Assembly: GCF_011620665.1 (NCBI RefSeq)
Contig: NZ_WOYQ01000037.1
Span: 1 to 38,468 of the forward strand
Direction of reading: 5' to 3'
Origin: Microbacterium sp.
Lineage (GTDB): Bacteria > Actinomycetota > Actinomycetes > Actinomycetales > Microbacteriaceae
Length of the DNA stretch: 38,468 bases
The translations under genes were made by a program, and so were the position numbers. Under the pieces are notes generated by a model. It saw nothing but the letters and a program-made list of their open reading frames with translations, searched no databases and was not told the origin of the DNA. Every line of letters begins with the position of its first letter. Position 1 is the first letter of the stretch. Positions 27,893 to 38,377 of this stretch are shown piece after piece.

Positions 27893-28480
27893 ATGCCCAA
27901 GCCCACCAAGGGTCCCCGCCTCGGAGGCGGCCCCGCACACGAGCGCCTGATGCTTGCGAACCTCGCCGCAGCGCTCTTCACCCACAAGTCGATCACGACG
28001 ACCGAGACCAAGGCCAAGCGCGTGCGTCCGCTCGCCGAGCGCCTGATCACGTTCGCCAAGCGCGGCGACCTGCACGCTCGTCGCCGCGTGCTGGCGGTCA
28101 TCGGCGACAAGGGCGTCGTGCACGAGCTCTTCACCGAGATCGCGCCGCTCGTCGCCGACCGCGAGGGCGGCTATACCCGCATCACGAAGATCGGCAATCG
28201 CAAGGGTGACAATGCTCCCATGGCCGTCATCGAGCTCGTGCTCGAACCGGTGAACCCGAAGCCGAAGTCGGCCAAGAAATCGGCAGCGGCCCCGGTCGCC
28301 GAGCCCGCGCCCGAGGCCGAGGCCGAGGTTCCCGCGCCCGCGCCCGAGGCCGAGGCCGAGGCCGAAGAGACGCCCGCCGTCGATGAAGCCGCCGACGCCG
28401 GAGCGGAGTCGCCCGAAGAAGGCGCCGCCGCCGAGGCTGCGGCGGAGGAGGCCGTCGAGGCCCCCACCGAGGAGAAGTAG
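27893..28480 (+). CDS. rplQ: Large ribosomal subunit protein bL17, with long acidic C-terminal tail
   Basis: Residues 1-120 or so are a normal L17 ([20 protein letters not shown] type; here [20 protein letters not shown]). The remaining 70 or so residues are almost entirely Ala, Glu and Pro, with repeats of EAEAE and PAPAPEAE encoded by repeated GAGGCC units. The total of 195 residues compares with about 120-130 in most bacteria. L17 is at the tunnel exit side. A strong terminator follows within 20 bp. Confidence 0.96.
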
Positions 28481-28497
28481 GACTCTCTCCCACTTTC

Positions 28498-28538
28498 GTG
28501 AAGAAGCCCGCGCCGCGCAACGGTGCGGGCTTCTTCAC
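28498..28538 (+). terminator. Terminator of the alpha operon
   Basis: GTGAAGAAGCCCGC (28498-28511) pairs perfectly with GCGGGCTTCTTCAC (28525-28538) around 13 nt, 18 bp after the rplQ stop. The T-rich TTCTTC lies in the descending arm. The match of arms and position makes it a clear rho-independent-type terminator, and probably works on both strands. Confidence 0.85.
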
Positions 28539-28590
28539 GTCTGGGGGCAGGCCGGGTCGGACGAGATGCGGATGCTGGGGCGCGGTCGGC

Positions 28591-28602
28591 CAGACTGGAG
28601 CC
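28591..28602 (+). promoter_or_regulatory. Leaderless-type start block of the PfkB gene
   Basis: CAGACT (28591-28596) is followed by GGAGCC and then ATG. This is the TAGRCT-GG-N-GCC pattern seen also before truA and the EEP-family gene. The GGAG is only two bases from the ATG, too close for a ribosome-binding site. No clear -35 is visible. Confidence 0.4.
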
Positions 28603-29490
28603 ATGGCATCACAGGTCCTCGTGATCGGCGAAGCGCTCATCGACATCGTCGACAGCGCCGGCGAGCACCGTGAGCTCGTCGGCGGGAGTCCCGCCAACGT
28701 CGCGGTCGGGCTCGCGCGGCAGGGGCACGATGTCCGACTGCTCACCCGGCTGGGCCGTGACGCGCGCGGCTCCCGGATAGCCGCGCTCGTGGCCGCGTCC
28801 GGTGTGGTCGTCGCGGACGAGTCATGGACGGATGCCGCCACCCCCACGGCACGGGCGCGCCTCCGCGCCGACGGTTCGGCAGAGTACGAGTTCGCGATCG
28901 ACTGGAGGATTCCCGCGCCATCCCTCGGCAGCGCGTCAGCCGTTCACGCCGGGTCGATCGCTCTGTTCCTCGAGCCGGGCGGCGGCACGGTGCTCGCGGC
29001 ACTCCAGAACGCGGCCGGGCGTGCGCTCGTCACGGTCGACCCGAACATCCGCCCCTCGCTCGTGGGCGAGCACCGGGGCGCGCTTGCGCGGTTCGTGGCC
29101 GCTGCCCGCGCGGCGGACCTCGTCAAGCTGAGCGACGAAGACGCGGCATGGCTGTTCCCGGGGCTGCCGCCGGAGCAGGTCCTCGCCGAGATCGGTTCGC
29201 TCGGACCCCGGATCGTCGTGCTCACGCGCGGGGGACAGGGCGCACTCGGACTGGGACCCGGAGGGATCAGCGAGGTCCCGGCGTTCCCGGTCGATGTGTC
29301 CGACACGATCGGCGCCGGCGATGCCTACATGGCGAGCCTCATCTCCAGCGCCCTCGACGATCCTCGGATGTTCGAGTCTGCGGCGGTGTTCGAGCGGGCG
29401 CTGCGGCGGGCGGCGGTGATGGCCGGGATCACGGTCTCTCGCCCCGGCGCGAATCCCCCGACACGCGGCGAGGTAGACGCCGCTCGCTGA
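28603..29490 (+). CDS. PfkB-family carbohydrate kinase (fructokinase-like)
   Basis: This 295-residue ribokinase-fold enzyme probably phosphorylates a sugar with ATP in the cytoplasm. It has the N-terminal signature GGSPANVAVGLARQG (residues 27-41), the DTIGAGDAYMA motif with catalytic D240, and the anion-hole GAGD. Overall it is closest to bacterial fructokinases and related PfkB members. I chose ATG 28603, since the longer in-frame start lies inside the rplQ terminator. The sugar is not determined. Confidence 0.88.
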   Translation: MASQVLVIGEALIDIVDSAGEHRELVGGSPANVAVGLARQGHDVRLLTRLGRDARGSRIAALVAASGVVVADESWTDAATPTARARLRADGSAEYEFAIDWRIPAPSLGSASAVHAGSIALFLEPGGGTVLAALQNAAGRALVTVDPNIRPSLVGEHRGALARFVAAARAADLVKLSDEDAAWLFPGLPPEQVLAEIGSLGPRIVVLTRGGQGALGLGPGGISEVPAFPVDVSDTIGAGDAYMASLISSALDDPRMFESAAVFERALRRAAVMAGITVSRPGANPPTRGEVDAAR

Positions 29491-29491
29491 G

Positions 29492-29503
29492 TAGGCTGGG
29501 GCC
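29492..29503 (+). promoter_or_regulatory. Leaderless-type start block of truA
   Basis: TAGGCT (29492-29497) is followed by GGGGCC and GTG. It lies on the stop region of the kinase gene (TGAGTAGGCT). No Shine-Dalgarno sequence is present at a useful distance. A -10 six bases before the start implies an mRNA beginning at or next to the GTG. Confidence 0.5.
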
Positions 29504-30328
29504 GTGCGCCTGCGCCTCGACATCGCCTACGACGGCACCGGCTTTCGAGGCTGGGCGCGACAGCCTGAGTTGCGTACGGTGCAGGGCACGCTCGAGGCCG
29601 CGATCGCCCGCATCCTCGGCGGCAACCCGCAACTGGTCGTTGCGGGGCGGACGGATGCCGGAGTCCACGCGAGCGGACAGGTCGCCCATCTCGACCTCAC
29701 CGACGCGCAGCGCGAGCGGCTCGCCAAGGGCCGCACCCCCGAACCGCAGGCTCTGGCCGCTCGCATCAACGGTGTTCTCGGACCGTACCCGGACGTCGTC
29801 GTCCGCACGGTCTCCGAGGCCGCCGCGGGCTTCGACGCGCGGTTCTCGGCGGTCTGGCGACGCTACGAATACCGCATCGCGGATCGGGGCTACGACCCGC
29901 TCGAACGAAACCGCACGACGACCGTGAGCGCGCCGCTCGACGTCGGGGCGATGGATGACGCGGCCCGGTCTCTGCTCGGGCTCCACGATTTCGCGGCCTA
30001 CTGCAAGTGGCGCGAGGATGCGACCACGATCCGCACTCTGCTGGAGTTCGGGTGGCGTCGCAACGCTCACGGCATCCTGATCGCGAGCGTGAAGGCGGAT
30101 GCCTTCTGCCACAGCATGGTGCGCGCACTGGTGGGCGCGTGCGCGGCGGTCGGCGAGGGGCGCCTCGAGCGCGCGGACGTCGTTCGGCTCCGCGACGAAC
30201 GGCTGCGCACGAGCGCGTTCAAGGTGCTGCCGGCGCGCGGCCTCACGCTGTCGGAGGTCGGCTACCCGGCGGATGCGCTGCTCGCTGCGCGTGCCGAGCA
30301 GACCCGCGCACGCCGAGACGCAGACTGA
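29504..30328 (+). CDS. truA: tRNA pseudouridine(38-40) synthase
   Basis: This 274-residue TruA isomerises uridines 38-40 of the tRNA anticodon arm. Catalytic D51 is in AGRTDAGVHASGQVAH, and the N-terminus RLDIAYDGTGFRGWARQPEL is typical. Its place after rplQ is conserved in actinobacteria, although here the kinase gene intervenes. The start is GTG at 29504. The C-terminal ADALLAARAEQTRARRDAD is a short charged tail. Confidence 0.95.
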   Translation: MRLRLDIAYDGTGFRGWARQPELRTVQGTLEAAIARILGGNPQLVVAGRTDAGVHASGQVAHLDLTDAQRERLAKGRTPEPQALAARINGVLGPYPDVVVRTVSEAAAGFDARFSAVWRRYEYRIADRGYDPLERNRTTTVSAPLDVGAMDDAARSLLGLHDFAAYCKWREDATTIRTLLEFGWRRNAHGILIASVKADAFCHSMVRALVGACAAVGEGRLERADVVRLRDERLRTSAFKVLPARGLTLSEVGYPADALLAARAEQTRARRDAD

Positions 30329-30350
30329 GCGGATCCCAAGGTGCGACGAA

Positions 30351-30363
30351 TAGGCTGGCGCCG
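30351..30363 (+). promoter_or_regulatory. Leaderless-type start block of the EEP-family gene
   Basis: TAGGCT (30351-30356) is followed by GGCGCCG and then ATG at 30364. It shares TAGGCTGG-GCC with the truA block. No ribosome-binding site is visible. Confidence 0.5.
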
Positions 30364-31038
30364 ATGAAAGTCATCTCGTACAACCTCAACAAGCACAAGG
30401 CCGTCGGCGAGCTCGACGACCTCGTAGAGTCGACGTACGCCGACATCCTCTGCCTGCAGGAGGCGGTGACCGAGGCTCTTCCTGCCAAGATCGCCAGCCT
30501 GCAGCTGGCCGACGCCACGGCACGCAATCGCCTCGGATTGGCCGTGTACTACCGGCGGAACGCGTTCGAGGCGCTCGAGATCCGTGCCGTCGCGTTGAAG
30601 AAGTCCCTCCACGACCGCGTGCTCAAGCCCGCGGAAGAGCGGATGCTGGCGGTGCGGCTGCGCGACATCGATGACGGCCGCGACTTCACGGTCGCGAGCT
30701 TCCACGCCGCGCCGCTCACGGCGCTCAACTCGCTGCGCCGCAAGCAGATCCAGGCGGCGCTGGCGGAGCTGTCGACCCTGGGTGCGGATCTGCCGATCCT
30801 GATGGTGGGCGATTACAACTACCCCGTCTTCAAAGAGAACCTCAGCGAGAAGGTGCGTGAAGCCGGCTACGAGCTGACACTGAGCGATGCGCGGACGTAC
30901 ACCCGCTACAAGTTCTTCAAGGGTCATTACGACTTCGCGACGTCCGTCGGCGTCGACATCGGTGACATCACGACCCTGCCGCAGGGGCTGAGCGACCACC
31001 TGCCGATTCTCGTCACCGCAGAGCTGAGCCGGCGCTGA
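30364..31038 (+). CDS. Endonuclease/exonuclease/phosphatase-family protein
   Basis: This 224-residue single-domain metal-dependent hydrolase has MKVISYNLNKHKAV at the start (metal Asn), LCLQEAV (metal Glu), MVGDYNYPVF (catalytic Asp/Asn) and the terminal GLSDHLPILV (Asp-His pair). These are the diagnostic EEP motifs. There is no signal peptide, so it acts in the cytoplasm. Whether it cleaves nucleic acid or dephosphorylates a small molecule cannot be told. It lies 35 bp after truA and has its own start block. Confidence 0.85.
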   Translation: MKVISYNLNKHKAVGELDDLVESTYADILCLQEAVTEALPAKIASLQLADATARNRLGLAVYYRRNAFEALEIRAVALKKSLHDRVLKPAEERMLAVRLRDIDDGRDFTVASFHAAPLTALNSLRRKQIQAALAELSTLGADLPILMVGDYNYPVFKENLSEKVREAGYELTLSDARTYTRYKFFKGHYDFATSVGVDIGDITTLPQGLSDHLPILVTAELSRR

Positions 31039-31153
31039 GCCGGGTCACAGCCGGGAGTGTCCGCGGGCGGGGTTTCTCCGGCCCGTGCGCGTGCGCCCCA
31101 CGTGATTGCTCGATAGCGTGGGCGGAGAGCTGGCTCCATCGGAGGGACGAACC
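31039..31153 (+). other. Intergenic region before the stress-protein gene
   Basis: These 115 bp hold no gene. GGAGG (31141-31145) is the ribosome-binding site of the next gene. GATAGCGT near 31112 could be a -10, but no -35 is clear. Confidence 0.4.
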
Positions 31154-31993
31154 ATGGCTGAGAGAATCATCGTCGGTGTCGCGGGCGGACCCGTGTCGGA
31201 CCGAGCTGTGGACTGGGCAGCCGCGCGGGCGCGCGCGCGAGAGGAGAGCCTCGAGCTCATCGCCGTCGTCGGCGGCGCCGTGGGGGCCGTCGGTGAGCCA
31301 TCCGTCCTCGAGAGCGCGACTCAGGCGGCGCACGACATGCTCGATGCACAGGTCGCGCGCGTCGGACCGGGCATTCCGATCACGACGCGAGTCCTGACCG
31401 GCAACCCCGTGGCGCACCTGATCGACGCGTCGGCGGATGCCGGACTGCTGGTCATCGGCAGCGACTACCGGGGTCCGGATCACGGGCCCGCGCGCGGGCC
31501 CCATGGCACACGGATCGCGGCGGGCGCGAAGTGCCCCGTGGTCGTCGTACCCGACGTCACGCAGGTCGGGCGCTCGGGGATCATCGTGGGGCTCGACGGC
31601 TCGCCCCTCTCGGAGCGAGCCCTCGCGTTCGCGGCGAGCGAGGCCGACCGCTGGGGAGAGCCGCTCACGGCGATCAGTGTGTGGACCCCCTTGTCGGCAC
31701 CGCGCAACACCCTCGCGGTGTACCCCGACATGTATCTGGCGAATATGCAGGCGATGACGGAAGAGATGCAATCGCTCGCGCTTGCCGGCGTTTCCTCCGA
31801 CTACCCCGATCTCGTGGTCGAACGCGTGGTGGTACAGGGGCATCCATCGCAGGTGATCAATTCGCGCGCGGCCGGCGCGAGGATGATCGTGCTCGGAACG
31901 CACGGGCGTGGCGCGCTCGCACGGTTTCTTCTGGGCTCGGTCAGCCACGAGGTGCTCGAGCGGCTGGTGACGGTCACCGCCGTCGTGCGCTGA
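31154..31993 (+). CDS. Tandem universal stress protein
   Basis: This 279-residue protein has two UspA folds in tandem. The C-terminal domain has the complete ATP-binding signature G-2x-G-9x-G-S (GTHGRGALARFLLGSVS). The N-terminal domain has a degenerate version (VIGSDYRGPDHGPARGP). Two-domain Usp proteins in mycobacteria respond to hypoxia and stationary phase. The start at 31154 is set by GGAGG nine bases earlier. An upstream in-frame codon lacks such support. Confidence 0.9.
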   Translation: MAERIIVGVAGGPVSDRAVDWAAARARAREESLELIAVVGGAVGAVGEPSVLESATQAAHDMLDAQVARVGPGIPITTRVLTGNPVAHLIDASADAGLLVIGSDYRGPDHGPARGPHGTRIAAGAKCPVVVVPDVTQVGRSGIIVGLDGSPLSERALAFAASEADRWGEPLTAISVWTPLSAPRNTLAVYPDMYLANMQAMTEEMQSLALAGVSSDYPDLVVERVVVQGHPSQVINSRAAGARMIVLGTHGRGALARFLLGSVSHEVLERLVTVTAVVR

Positions 31994-32033
31994 GCGGCGG
32001 CAGTCGGCCGTGAGGCCTCCCCGGCGGCACGGT

Positions 32034-32062
32034 TTGGTCCCGGCATCCGGATGCCGTAGTGT
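32034..32062 (+). promoter_or_regulatory. Promoter of rplM-rpsI-glmM with palindromic spacer
   Basis: TTGGTC (32034-32039) and TAGTGT (32057-32062) are separated by 17 bp. Sixteen of these spacer bases (32041-32056) form the perfect palindrome CGGCATCCGGATGCCG, which could be an operator. The predicted start point leaves a leader of about 145 nt. Confidence 0.6.
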
Positions 32063-32121
32063 TGACCCTTGGTGTGCGGCTCTGCTGATCCGGCACCGCG
32101 AACGTGAGCCCTCCACTGGCC

Positions 32122-32158
32122 CTTCGGCAGGCTCAGGGACCGATGTCCCCTGGCGAAG
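32122..32158 (+). promoter_or_regulatory. Hairpin in the rplM leader, related to the S10 leader element
   Basis: CTTCG (32122-32126) pairs with CGAAG (32154-32158). The interior pairs either as CAGG/CCTG plus GGAC/GTCC or as GGGAC/GTCCC around CGAT. The 5' side carries TCGGCAGGCTCAGGGACC, close to TCGACAGGCTCGCAGACC in the rpsJ leader. It may be a copy of a dispersed actinobacterial palindromic repeat or a shared regulatory RNA motif. Confidence 0.5.
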
Positions 32159-32214
32159 CACCCCGGAGTGGGATTCACGAACCTCTCCGTTCGAATCAAG
32201 AAAGCAGCACTATT

Positions 32215-32661
32215 GTGACGCGCACCTACACCCCCAAAGCCGGTGAAGTGACCCGGGAGTGGGTCGTCATCGACGCGACCGACGTCGTCCTCGGACGCCT
32301 CGCCTCGCACGCCGCGACCCTCCTTCGCGGCAAGCACAAGCCCACCTTCGCGAACCACATGGACACCGGTGACTTCGTCATCGTGATCAACGCGGAGAAG
32401 GTCGCCCTGACCGGTCAGAAGCTCCAGCAGAAGATGGACTACCGCCACTCGGGCTACCCGGGCGGACTGCGCTCCACGTCGTACGCCGAGCTTCTGGAGA
32501 AGAACCCGATCCGCGCCGTCGAGAAGGCGGTCCGCGGAATGCTCCCCAAAAACAGCCTGGGACGCCAGCAGCTGTCGAAACTGAAGGTCTATGTGGGCTC
32601 CGAACACCCGCACGCGGCCCAGCAGCCCACCACGTACACCTTCGGCCAGGTCGCCCAGTAA
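32215..32661 (+). CDS. rplM: Large ribosomal subunit protein uL13
   Basis: This 148-residue L13 is an early-assembly 50S protein. It has [20 protein letters not shown], then [39 protein letters not shown] and the terminal [18 protein letters not shown] chose GTG 32215 because longer in-frame starts run back through the leader hairpin. A weak GAAAG lies upstream. Confidence 0.97.
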
Positions 32662-32688
32662 GCGCGACGAGAGATACAAGGACAACTC

Positions 32689-33174
32689 ATGGCGAAGATC
32701 GCTGATTCCATCGAAGAGACTCCCGAGAGCTACACCACCGAGAGCGAGGCGGCCCCGGTCGTCGCGGCCCCTCGCCCCGTGCTCTCCGTTCCCGGCGCCG
32801 CCGTCGGCCGCCGCAAGCAGGCCATCGCCCGCGTGCGGCTGGTTCCCGGCACCGGCACGATCACGGTCAATGGGCGCACGCTCGAGGACTACTTCCCCAA
32901 CAAGCTGCATCAGCAGCTGATCAACGACCCGTTCACGGTGCTCGATCTGGTCGGCGCGTACGACGTGATCGTCCGCATCTCCGGCGGGGGCCCTTCGGGT
33001 CAGGCCGGTGCGCTGCGCCTCGGCATCGCGCGCTCGCTCAACCAGATCGACGCCGAGAACAACCGCGCCACCCTGAAGAAGGCCGGCTTCCTCTCGCGTG
33101 ACGCTCGCGTCATCGAGCGTAAGAAGGCTGGTCTCAAGAAGGCCCGCAAGGCGCCGCAGTACTCGAAGCGCTAG
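32689..33174 (+). CDS. rpsI: Small ribosomal subunit protein uS9, with N-terminal extension
   Basis: The S9 core begins near residue 39 ([20 protein letters not shown]) and ends with the universal KAPQYSKR tail that reaches the P-site tRNA. About 38 acidic and Ala/Pro-rich residues precede it, giving 161 residues rather than about 130. It follows rplM by 27 bp and precedes glmM by 8 bp. Confidence 0.97.
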
Positions 33175-33182
33175 ATCGCTTC
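33165..33182 (+). promoter_or_regulatory. Hairpin spanning the rpsI stop and abutting the glmM start
   Basis: GAAGCG (33165-33170) pairs with CGCTTC (33177-33182). The TAG of rpsI is in the loop and the ATG of glmM follows immediately. No Shine-Dalgarno sequence precedes glmM, so initiation there may depend on ribosomes finishing rpsI and opening the stem (inference). Confidence 0.4.
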
Positions 33183-34526
33183 ATGGCGCTGTTCGGTACG
33201 GACGGTGTGCGTGGGCTGGCAAACGGCCCCCTCACCGCCGACCTCGCGCTCACCCTGGCCCAGGCGACTGCTGTCGTCCTGGGCCAGGGGCGTATCGCAG
33301 ACGCGCGCCGCGCGGCGGGCAAGCGGCTCACCGCCGTCGTCGCTCGCGATCCGCGCATTTCGGGCAACTTCCTCTCGTCTGCCGTCGAGGCGGGGCTCGC
33401 CTCGTCGGGCGTCGATGTGCTCGATGCCGGCATCCTCCCGACCCCCGCCGCCGCGTTCCTGATCGCCGACATCGACGCTGACTTCGGAGTGATGATCTCG
33501 GCATCCCACAATCCGGCTCCAGACAACGGAATCAAGATCTTCGCGCGGGGTGGCGTCAAGCTCCCCGACCATGTCGAGAAGCGCATCGAAGAGGCCATGA
33601 CGGGCGAGAAGCTGCGGCCCACGGGTGCCGACGTCGGTCGCGTCGAACGGTTCTCGGATGCCGAGGACCGCTATGCGATCCACCTGCTCGCGTCGCTGAC
33701 CCACCGCCTCGACGGACTGCACGTCGTGCTGGATTGCGCACACGGTGCGGCATCCGGAGTCTCGCCCGAGACCTTCCGCAATGCAGGCGCACGCGTGACG
33801 GTGATCGGCGCGGATCCCGACGGGATCAACATCAACGACGGCTACGGATCGACCCACCTCGAGCGTCTCGCGGCCGAGGTCGTGCGCACCGGCGCCGATG
33901 TCGGCATCGCCCACGACGGCGATGCCGATCGGTGCCTCGCGGTGGATGCCGCGGGCAACATCGTCGACGGCGACCAGATCATGGCGGTTCTCGCCGTCGC
34001 GATGAAGCGCGACGGGCGGCTGAAGGACGACACCCTCGTGACCACGGTGATGAGCAATCTCGGGCTGCACCGCGCGATGGAGGCTCACGGAATCCATGTC
34101 GAGACCACGGCGGTGGGCGACCGGTACGTGCTCGAGCGCATGACGGCCGGCGGGTACTCGCTCGGCGGCGAGCAGAGCGGCCACGTCATCATGAGCCGCT
34201 TCGCGACGACCGGTGATGGTGTTCTCACCGGGTTGCACCTCTGCGCCGAGATGGCGCGGACGGGGCGGTCCCTTGCGGACCTGGTCTCGGTCATGACCGT
34301 GTTCCCGCAGGTTCTGATCAACGTGCGCGGGGTCCCGCGCTCGCGGGCGACGGACGATGACGTCGTCGAGGCCGTGGAGGCCGCCTCGGCCGCACTGGGT
34401 GCCGCGGGCCGTGTTCTCCTGCGTCCCTCGGGTACGGAGCCGATGGTGCGCGTCATGGTCGAGGCGGTCACCACGGACGATGCCCGGCGCGTCGCCGAGC
34501 GCCTGGCCGAGATCGTCCGCGGCTGA
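33183..34526 (+). CDS. glmM: Phosphoglucosamine mutase
   Basis: This 447-residue enzyme converts glucosamine-6-phosphate to glucosamine-1-phosphate for UDP-GlcNAc and peptidoglycan synthesis. The phosphorylated serine is S108 in [16 protein letters not shown]. The metal loop is DGDADRC, the sugar loop is GGEQSGH, and the phosphate-binding end is [14 protein letters not shown]. It starts [20 protein letters not shown]. It is co-transcribed with rplM-rpsI. GlmS, the preceding pathway step, is encoded 2 kb downstream. Confidence 0.97.
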
Positions 34527-34549
34527 CTCTTCGGTGCTCGGCGTCAGCC
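34521..34549. terminator. Bidirectional hairpin containing both convergent stop codons
   Basis: GGCTGAC (34521-34527) pairs perfectly with GTCAGCC (34543-34549) around 15 nt. The TGA of glmM lies in the left arm and the TGA of the convergent phosphatase in the right arm. There is no T-tract. As the genes are only 17 bp apart, this is the only candidate terminator for either. Confidence 0.5.
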
Positions 34550-35485
34550 GGGCTCGTTCCAGCTGAGCGACTCGATGTAGCGCAGCAGAACGCCCTCGCG
34601 GAGCGCCCAGGGTGAGACTTCGAGCTCGTCGGCGGAGAGCGCGGTCATCGCGGTATGGAGGACGACGGCGGCCGCCACGATCTGGAAGGTGCGGTCCGCG
34701 GTGATCCCCGGCAGTTCTTGACGGGCGGATGCCGGCAGGCGCGCGAGCCGCGGAATCCACGACCCGAGCGCCGCGCGGGGCAGCAGCATCCGCTCGCTGC
34801 CGCTCCATCCCGGAGCGGGGTATCCGGCGAGTTTCGCGAGGGACCGGATGGCCTTGGACGACCCGACGATGTGGTTCGGGCGGGGCTGACCCGCCATGAG
34901 ATCGACAACCGGCGCGAGCGCTCTGCGGGCGTGTGCACGGAGATGCTCGACGGCCTTCTCGCCGGGAGGGTCGTTCGGGAGGAACTCGACTGTCGTCCGC
35001 CCCGCGCCCAGTGGCACGGATGCCGCGACCTCCGGCAGCTCATCGGCTCCGGCAGCGAGCTCGAGCGACCCGCCGCCGATGTCGAAGAGCAGGATCTGTC
35101 CGGCCGACCACCCGAACCAGCGGCGGACGGCCAAGAAGGTGAACCGTGCCTCGGACTCTCCGCCGAGAACCTGCAGCTCCTGGCCGAGGGCTTCCTCGAT
35201 CCTGGCGATGACGGCGGCGCCGTTGGTCGCCTCGCGCACCGCGCTCGTGGCCGTCGCGAGCAGTTCGACCACGTTCTCGGCCTCGGCCGTCGCGCGCGCC
35301 TGGGCCACGGCATCCACCAGCGCCGCGACACCGGGTTCGCTGATCGATCCGTCGGGCTGGAGGTAGCGCATCAGCCGCAGGACGGTGCGCTGGGAGGTCG
35401 CCGCGAGCGGACGCCCGCCGGGGTGCACATCGGCGACGAGCAGGTGGACCGTGTTCGAGCCGATGTCGAGTACTCCCAAGCGCAT
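34544..35485 (-). CDS. Ppx/GppA family phosphatase
   Basis: This 313-residue member of the exopolyphosphatase/guanosine pentaphosphate phosphatase family has the ASKHA-fold motifs VLDIGSNTVHLLVADV near the N-terminus and LLFDIGGGSLEL near residue 140. The length matches the short actinobacterial Ppx form without the C-terminal HD domain. It may hydrolyse polyphosphate or (p)ppGpp. ATG 35485 gives the canonical N-terminus. Longer in-frame starts overlap coaA. It is divergent from coaA with only 33 bp between starts. Confidence 0.9.
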   Translation of the reverse strand: MRLGVLDIGSNTVHLLVADVHPGGRPLAATSQRTVLRLMRYLQPDGSISEPGVAALVDAVAQARATAEAENVVELLATATSAVREATNGAAVIARIEEALGQELQVLGGESEARFTFLAVRRWFGWSAGQILLFDIGGGSLELAAGADELPEVAASVPLGAGRTTVEFLPNDPPGEKAVEHLRAHARRALAPVVDLMAGQPRPNHIVGSSKAIRSLAKLAGYPAPGWSGSERMLLPRAALGSWIPRLARLPASARQELPGITADRTFQIVAAAVVLHTAMTALSADELEVSPWALREGVLLRYIESLSWNEPG

Positions 35486-35505
35486 TCGATCAGCGTATCG
35501 ACAGA

Positions 35506-35518
35506 TAGAGTGGGCGCG
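35506..35518 (+). promoter_or_regulatory. Leaderless-type start block of coaA
   Basis: TAGAGT (35506-35511) is followed by GGGCGCG and ATG 35519. The whole divergent region is 33 bp, too short for a leader with a ribosome-binding site. Confidence 0.5.
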
Positions 35519-36466
35519 ATGTCCACCGAAGACGCGACGCTCGCAGTCGACTCGCTGTATCGCGAGGTCGGCCGTTCCGAGTGGGCGCGGCTGGCCGCGG
35601 GCATGCCTAATCCGCTGAGCGAGACCGAAGTCGTGCAGCTGCGCGGTATCGGGGACCGGTTGGATCTTGCGGAGGTCCGAGAGGTCTACCTGCCCCTCAG
35701 CCGGCTGCTGTCGACCTACGTCGAGAACACGAAACGGCTCGGCGCGGAGACAGCCGACTTCCTCGGGGAGCCGGACTCCACGACGCCCTTCGTCCTGGCG
35801 GTGGCGGGGTCGGTCGCCGTGGGCAAGTCGACGATCGCCCGCCTGCTGCGCGAGCTCATGAGCCGCTGGCCCGGCACGCCTCGCGTCGAACTGGTCACCA
35901 CCGACGGGTTCCTCCACCCCAACGCTGAGCTCGATCGCCGCGGGATCATGGACCGCAAGGGGTTTCCCGAGTCCTACGACCGCCGCGCGCTCGTGCGCTT
36001 CCTGATGGACGTGAAGTCCGGTGCTCCCGAGGCGCGGGCGCCGTTCTACTCGCACGTGCGGTACGACATCGTGCCTGACGCGCAGATCACGGTGCGACGC
36101 CCGGATGTCGTCATCGTCGAGGGGTTGAACGTCCTCTCACCCCCTCCGCGCCCGAACGAGATCGCCGTCAGCGACCTGTTCGATTTCTCGATCTACGTCG
36201 ACGCCGACGTCGACGACATCGCGTCCTGGTACGTCAGCCGGTTCCTGACTCTCCGCCGAAGTGCCTTCAACAACCCGAACTCGTTCTTCAAGGTGTTCGC
36301 GGAGCTGTCCGACGAGGAAGCCATGACCACGGCGATGGGGTACTGGAACCACACCAACCTTCCGAACCTGCGCGAGAACGTCGAGCCCACTCGGCACCGC
36401 GCGACCCTGATCCTGAAGAAGGGTGCCGACCACTCGGTCGAGCGCGTGCACCTGCGCAAGCTCTGA
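35519..36466 (+). CDS. coaA: Type I pantothenate kinase
   Basis: This 315-residue CoaA catalyses the first step of coenzyme A synthesis, phosphorylating pantothenate. The P-loop GSVAVGKS is at residues 97-104, followed by VTTDGFLHPN, KGFPESYD and IVEGLNVLSPP, all diagnostic of the prokaryotic type I enzyme. In E. coli this type is inhibited by CoA. ATG 35519 gives the usual N-terminus. The frame remains open for 860 bases upstream, but that part is antisense to the phosphatase gene and non-coding. Confidence 0.96.
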   Translation: MSTEDATLAVDSLYREVGRSEWARLAAGMPNPLSETEVVQLRGIGDRLDLAEVREVYLPLSRLLSTYVENTKRLGAETADFLGEPDSTTPFVLAVAGSVAVGKSTIARLLRELMSRWPGTPRVELVTTDGFLHPNAELDRRGIMDRKGFPESYDRRALVRFLMDVKSGAPEARAPFYSHVRYDIVPDAQITVRRPDVVIVEGLNVLSPPPRPNEIAVSDLFDFSIYVDADVDDIASWYVSRFLTLRRSAFNNPNSFFKVFAELSDEEAMTTAMGYWNHTNLPNLRENVEPTRHRATLILKKGADHSVERVHLRKL

Positions 36467-36513
36467 CTTCCGCCAGGGCGCTGCCCGGAAGAGTCGGCAA
36501 GGCGGATGCCGCC

Positions 36514-36526
36514 TACCATGGTCGCT
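36514..36526 (+). promoter_or_regulatory. Leaderless-type start block of glmS
   Basis: TACCAT (36514-36519) is followed by GGTCGCT and ATG 36527. No ribosome-binding site is visible. The position of this -10 supports the start that leaves Cys as residue 2. Confidence 0.45.

Positions 36527-38377
<1,851 letters not shown>

Follow-up and report, generated by a model that had tools for sequence, protein, structure and literature searches.

Background

Three published accounts of leaderless genes in Actinobacteria come closest to the arrangement considered here. Firstly, the main text of Zheng et al. (2011; PMC3160421) describes TA-led genes, in which a TANNNT hexamer lies about 12 bp before the start and which are read as leaderless; they were detected in 86 of the 89 actinobacterial genomes and on average account for 19.2% of the genes there. 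That main text contains no mention of Clavibacter, Leifsonia or any name beginning with Microbacteri. Secondly, the start sites mapped in Mycobacterium tuberculosis, as reported by Cortes et al. (2013; PMC3898074), are characterized by TANNNT, the absence of a -35 motif and a purine at +1, the commonest bases at -1 and +2 being C and T, respectively, and the leaderless mRNAs described there include no ribosomal-protein genes. Thirdly, the account of Shell et al. (2015; PMC4633059) describes mycobacterial translation from an RTG codon (ATG or GTG) at the 5' end of the mRNA, with no Shine-Dalgarno (SD) sequence and often conserved between orthologues.

Results and discussion

The genes and their start codons

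The window, the whole stretch of 38,468 nucleotides of Microbacterium sp. DNA that was analysed, belongs to a genome of 2.2 Mb in 82 contigs, with a GC content of 68% in a sample of 342,547 bases (20 stretches and the window). Its truA gene most resembles those of Microbacterium spp., the 11 best named matches showing 76-79% identity. Six genes were considered (Table 1), of which pfkB, EEP and ppx are claimed at the Pfam family level only, their matches to NCBIfam models all staying below cut-off. Since longer open frames with an earlier possible start exist for all of these genes except truA, the six start codons rest on homology. In the case of glmS, the cysteine of Met-Cys-Gly, which we take to be the catalytic residue, would fix the start codon if the protein must begin with Met-Cys.

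Table 1. Genes, -10 hexamers and divergent spacer of the window
Feature	Coordinates	Strand	Evidence
PfkB-family carbohydrate kinase (pfkB)	28603..29490	+	Pfam PF00294 1.3e-35
truA, GTG start, predicted leaderless	29504..30328	+	TIGR00071 6.2e-45, above cut-off
Endonuclease/exonuclease/phosphatase-family gene (EEP), predicted leaderless or with 0-3 nt leader	30364..31038	+	PF03372 1.5e-8
Ppx/GppA-family phosphatase (ppx), predicted leaderless, divergent from coaA	34544..35485	-	PF02541 3.6e-54; TIGR03706 below cut-off
coaA, type I pantothenate kinase, predicted leaderless	35519..36466	+	TIGR00554 1.3e-128
glmS, predicted leaderless, begins Met-Cys-Gly	36527..38377	+	TIGR01135 1.1e-232; translation
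CAGACT, weak -10-like hexamer, 6 nt before pfkB ATG 28603	28591..28596	+	CAGACT...ATG gap-6 peak in genome
TAGGCT, -10 hexamer, 6 nt before truA GTG 29504	29492..29497	+	Sequence; orthologue conservation
TAGGCT, -10 hexamer, 7 nt before EEP ATG 30364	30351..30356	+	Sequence; orthologue comparison
TACGCT, -10 hexamer, 6 nt before ppx ATG 35485	35492..35497	-	Sequence; orthologue conservation
TAGAGT, -10 hexamer, 7 nt before coaA ATG 35519	35506..35511	+	Sequence; orthologue conservation
TACCAT, -10 hexamer, 7 nt before glmS ATG 36527	36514..36519	+	Sequence; orthologue and class-wide conservation
ppx/coaA 33-bp spacer, two divergent -10 hexamers 8 bp apart	35486..35518		Coordinates counted on sequence

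The ORF preceding pfkB ends at 28480. Between this ORF and pfkB, a perfect 15-bp inverted repeat with a 13-nt loop and no T run was seen by eye (28497-28539). This repeat is probably a terminator, in which case pfkB would need its own promoter. Directly before the glmS hexamer lies a short hairpin (GGCGG-atg-CCGCC; 36501-36513), which may be due to chance in GC-rich DNA and which contains ATG 36506, an earlier in-frame start for glmS. A structured 5' UTR was considered and rejected, as no Rfam family reached its threshold in the window.

Hexamers before the six starts

A preliminary description of this DNA had placed promoter-like strings before pfkB, truA, EEP, coaA and glmS, each with a -10-like hexamer 6-7 nt before the start and no usable SD sequence. 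All five strings were retrieved at the positions claimed, and the lack of a usable SD was borne out by eye, the GGAG of pfkB lying just 2 nt from its ATG. TANNNT indeed precedes truA, EEP, coaA and glmS at this distance; the claim does not extend to pfkB, which has only CAGACT. A sixth case, ppx on the minus strand, had been overlooked; no SD at a usable distance was seen by eye before this gene either. All six starts are ATG or GTG. On both strands of the window, TANNNT combined with a coding-like RTG start was found twice at gap 6 and three times at gap 7 (the gap being counted between hexamer and start), as against five cases summed over the 29 other gaps tested, and the five cases at gaps 6 and 7 are exactly truA, EEP, coaA, glmS and ppx. 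Like TA-led genes, these five thus have TANNNT some 12 bp ahead of the start codon, whereas pfkB does not.

An extended -10 element (TGN before the hexamer) was not found in any of the six genes, the triplets being GGC, GAG, GAA, AGA, GCC and CGA for pfkB, truA, EEP, coaA, glmS and ppx, respectively, and C directly precedes the start in only two of them (pfkB and truA), although this base is common there across the genome. The possibility that the TAG of the hexamer serves as the stop codon of the upstream gene was ruled out for truA and EEP, the upstream genes of which end in TGA before the hexamer. The -10 strings previously noted for S10 (TAGACTGA; 10335) and infA (TACACTGG; 25240), under the gene names used there, are likewise present in the sequence, with no ATG in the 62 nt 3' of either. 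If these strings are promoters, the hexamer marks promoters generally, and its distance to the start alone makes a gene leaderless.

Genome-wide spacing

The spacing was tested in the strain's own genome by counting each hexamer followed by ATG or GTG within 25 nt. TAGGCT before ATG (n = 83) occurred 26 times at gap 6 and 23 times at gap 7 (49/83), with approximately 1.4 cases per other gap. Before GTG (n = 99), 31 cases were found at gap 6 and six at gap 7 (37/99), with approximately 2.6 per other gap and 3.5 at same-phase gaps. The peak was gone in the T-to-A control TAGGCA before ATG (n = 39; two at gap 6 and one at gap 7), indicating a spacing far above chance in this genome, as in TA-led genes. 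The glmS hexamer TACCAT before ATG (n = 18) gave two cases at gap 6 and three at gap 7. As the pfkB hexamer CAGACT before ATG (n = 96) also peaks at gap 6 (17, with three at gap 7, approximately 3.2 per other gap and 3.6 at same-phase gaps), C at the first hexamer position seems to be tolerated.

In the 342,547-base sample, 168 ORFs were obtained by a GC3 filter, not by annotation, and TANNNT was present at gap 6 or 7 in 33 of them (27 and six), with a mean of 2.4 at other gaps and a higher background at same-phase gaps (39 over 10 gaps). Three of the 33 TA-led ORFs are the window's own, the set being without EEP and ppx. This suggests a TA-led share of about one gene in six, which agrees with the 19.2% average of PMC3160421 but is a rough figure because the ORF list stems from a filter; the 33 of 168 filtered ORFs, likewise a rough share, are counted before background subtraction. 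The genes considered here do not differ in kind from the TA-led genes described in the main text of PMC3160421. No -35 box (TTG at spacers of 15-20) was found in any of the 33 ORFs. An SD-like string was present in two of the 33; the hexamer itself takes up part of the region concerned, and the count covers these 33 ORFs only. G follows the hexamer in 33 and C precedes ATG in 36 of the 49 TAGGCT...ATG cases at gaps 6-7, the corresponding numbers for the 33 TA-led ORFs being 22 (G after the hexamer) and 16 (C before the start); these are raw counts with no background computed.

Conservation among orthologues

Orthologues were counted with in-frame starts within eight codons and TANNNT at gaps 6-8, against sliding control windows at gaps 12-32. 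The hexamer was present in 49/49 orthologues of glmS (control mean 6.0, maximum 27), 27/27 of ppx (0.7 and 2), 29/30 of coaA (1.0 and 3) and 74/95 of truA (1.3 and 3), counts that are not independent, as the rows represent related species. The high glmS control may be due to extra in-frame starts downstream. Rows left out comprised six duplicates, 16 without a start and one alignment beginning after residue 12 for truA, ten such late alignments and one row without a start for coaA, three duplicates for EEP, 18 rows below 55% identity and one duplicate for pfkB, and one late alignment for ppx; none was left out for glmS. A stricter count, restricted to the start nearest the projected one and to gaps 6 or 7, gave 64/91 for truA, 23/35 for coaA, 40/47 for glmS, 13/13 for ppx, 6/68 for EEP and 0/39 for pfkB; the 47 glmS orthologues shown all begin ATG-Cys-Gly.

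None of the 20 pfkB orthologues in the main count has TANNNT at gaps 6-8. NAnnnT was found at these gaps in 12 of the 20 (control mean 4.1, maximum 9), a loose criterion by which rpsI also exceeds its control (15/51 versus a maximum of 12). Neighbouring genes served as internal controls for TANNNT at gaps 6-8, with 0/56 for rplM, 0/51 for rpsI, 0/10 for usp and 7/52 for glmM. The glmM gene (window position 33183), absent from the list of the preliminary description, thus exceeds its control maximum of 3, which raises the possibility that glmM has a leaderless promoter in part of the relatives. In several genomes of the same genus (L134, L135, L140-L150), a GTTYGTnnGGnnCCnCGCAAA-like stretch, possibly an operator, lies approximately 23-45 nt before the glmS start; none was noticed in the window.

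The EEP orthologues behave differently, with TANNNT at gaps 8-10 in 58/67 and at gaps 6-8 in 12/67 (control mean 2.5, maximum 7), so that the mRNAs of these relatives probably start with a leader a few bases long. This accords with an alternative in which the hexamers are real promoters but the mRNAs carry leaders of 1-5 nt, translation being near-leaderless instead of strictly leaderless. Gaps 6 and 7 being both common before ATG points the same way, but GTG starts favour gap 6, an indication that transcription begins at one set position on the RTG codon, and this alternative is considered rather improbable.

Class-wide depth of the arrangement

Across the class, 20 genomes were sampled per gene from the other genomes with a match (57 for glmS, 24 for coaA and 56 for truA), chosen with a leaning to the best matches. 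The arrangement is kept by glmS in 19/20 genomes, the 20 starts being located by the Cys-Gly motif itself. Outside the family, TANNNT was retrieved for coaA in only 4/20 (gaps 5-9) and for truA in only 3/20; of these three genes, glmS is therefore the sole one in which the full hexamer is widely retained. NAnnnT at gaps 6-8 was found for coaA in 13/20, windows starting at gaps 10-25 averaging approximately 2.4.

These data also bear on a further alternative, namely that truA, EEP and glmS are mainly expressed by read-through from pfkB, truA and coaA, respectively, the hexamer being a minor internal promoter. The distances are indeed short, the starts lying 13 nt past the pfkB stop, 35 nt past truA and 60 nt past coaA. 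However, no usable SD for re-initiation was seen, and the glmS hexamer persists in all 49 relatives and in the 19 of 20 genomes across the class, including genomes in which coaA is divergent, making read-through as the main route equally hard to favour.

The 12-base block

The preliminary description had further proposed a block common to pfkB, truA, EEP and coaA. The block TAGRCTGGNGCC occurs exactly in two of the five sequences and in pfkB except for the first base, which is C for T; coaA and glmS do not fit. As a genome motif it fared no better: a scan of the 2.2-Mb genome yielded two occurrences, both in the window, versus eight for a reversed-pattern control, and its GCC end is not retained in orthologues. 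On these grounds TAGRCTGGNGCC was rejected as a motif; the recurrent element is the -10 hexamer, set at a constant spacing from an RTG codon. To read the TANNNT strings as chance, or TAGRCTGGNGCC as a dedicated regulatory element, is highly implausible, since the match of two sequences and most of a third to TAGRCTGGNGCC is outweighed by its rarity and its lost GCC end, and chance is ruled out for the hexamer by the spacing peak.

Leaderless reading

The genes considered here are very probably ordinary leaderless actinobacterial genes, judging from the hexamer, its fixed spacing, the genome-wide excess, the conservation and the absence of a -35 box. Of the five leaderless transcripts predicted previously, those of truA, coaA and glmS are best read in this way, as is that of ppx, and this assignment is firm; EEP is likely leaderless, with a leader of 0-3 nt. 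The case of pfkB is weaker and uncertain, its hexamer being without T at the first position and none of the 20 orthologues having TANNNT. Additional upstream promoters giving mRNAs with leaders may exist for these genes.

As to sigma factor, exact 5' end and route of translation, these observations suggest that the primary sigma factor would recognise the TANNNT hexamer, here without a canonical -35 box, and that RNA polymerase would initiate on the first base (A or G) of the RTG start codon, 7-8 nt beyond the hexamer, so that the mRNA would begin with its start codon and be translated without an SD sequence. In M. tuberculosis as reported in PMC3898074, TANNNT without a -35 motif is found too, and the absence of ribosomal-protein genes there is matched by rplM (0/56) and rpsI (0/51) here. 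Similarly, the ATG or GTG starts, the lack of an SD and the frequent conservation between orthologues are the same as in the mycobacterial RTG genes described in PMC4633059. Whereas the reports describe transcript ends as mapped in M. tuberculosis (PMC3898074) and translation as assayed by reporters and ribosome profiling in mycobacteria (PMC4633059), the Microbacterium genes are known from their sequence in both respects. The preliminary description saw in the arrangement a start-site grammar of this genome. The signature is instead a well-known habit of Actinobacteria and not new, having been published for this group in general (PMC3160421, PMC3898074); moreover, as that description itself has it, the same -10 hexamer is also used by promoters away from starts.

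Putative divergent promoters of ppx and coaA

In the ppx/coaA spacer, each -35 position falls on the start codon of the other gene, assuming a 17-nt spacer. The two promoters may thus be mutually exclusive. Pairs of divergent TANNNT hexamers, both with an open RTG start at a distance of 5-8 nt, were found at two places in the strain's own sample (none for the control ATNNNT). The loci of relatives, 1.9 Mb in all, yielded 19 such places, including coaA/glmS pairs, assigned by sequence, at L064, L072, L079 and L082. Similarly, the glmS start motif lies divergently upstream of coaA in nine of the 20 class-level segments. Another divergent leaderless-like pair, with -10 hexamers 4 bp apart, was observed at L004:17706-17741, L011:17788-17823 and L013:17640-17675.

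A broader scenario can be put forward tentatively: glmS might be leaderless throughout the Actinomycetes, in several lineages glmS or ppx might share with coaA a spacer of a few dozen bp holding two back-to-back leaderless promoters, and ppx and coaA of the window might admit one polymerase at a time and be expressed alternately. A literature search retrieved no paper joining leaderless with coaA and glmS, and none on 'conserved leaderless' promoters of orthologous genes in Actinobacteria. For leaderless genes and mapped start sites in Microbacterium, it led to a paper on C. glutamicum, and for divergent transcription from bidirectional leaderless promoters in bacteria, to one on an archaeon.

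Conclusions

For core genes of Microbacterium, the analysis yields probable promoters and start codons, together with a rule usable for start annotation in this genus. Specialists might pursue two points, the arrangement of glmS across the class and the closely spaced divergent pairs. In Firmicutes, the glmS ribozyme provides control in the 5' UTR; a leaderless glmS, if true, would leave no space for such control. Divergent pairs as tightly packed as ppx/coaA and coaA/glmS would offer a clean test of exclusion between opposing leaderless promoters.
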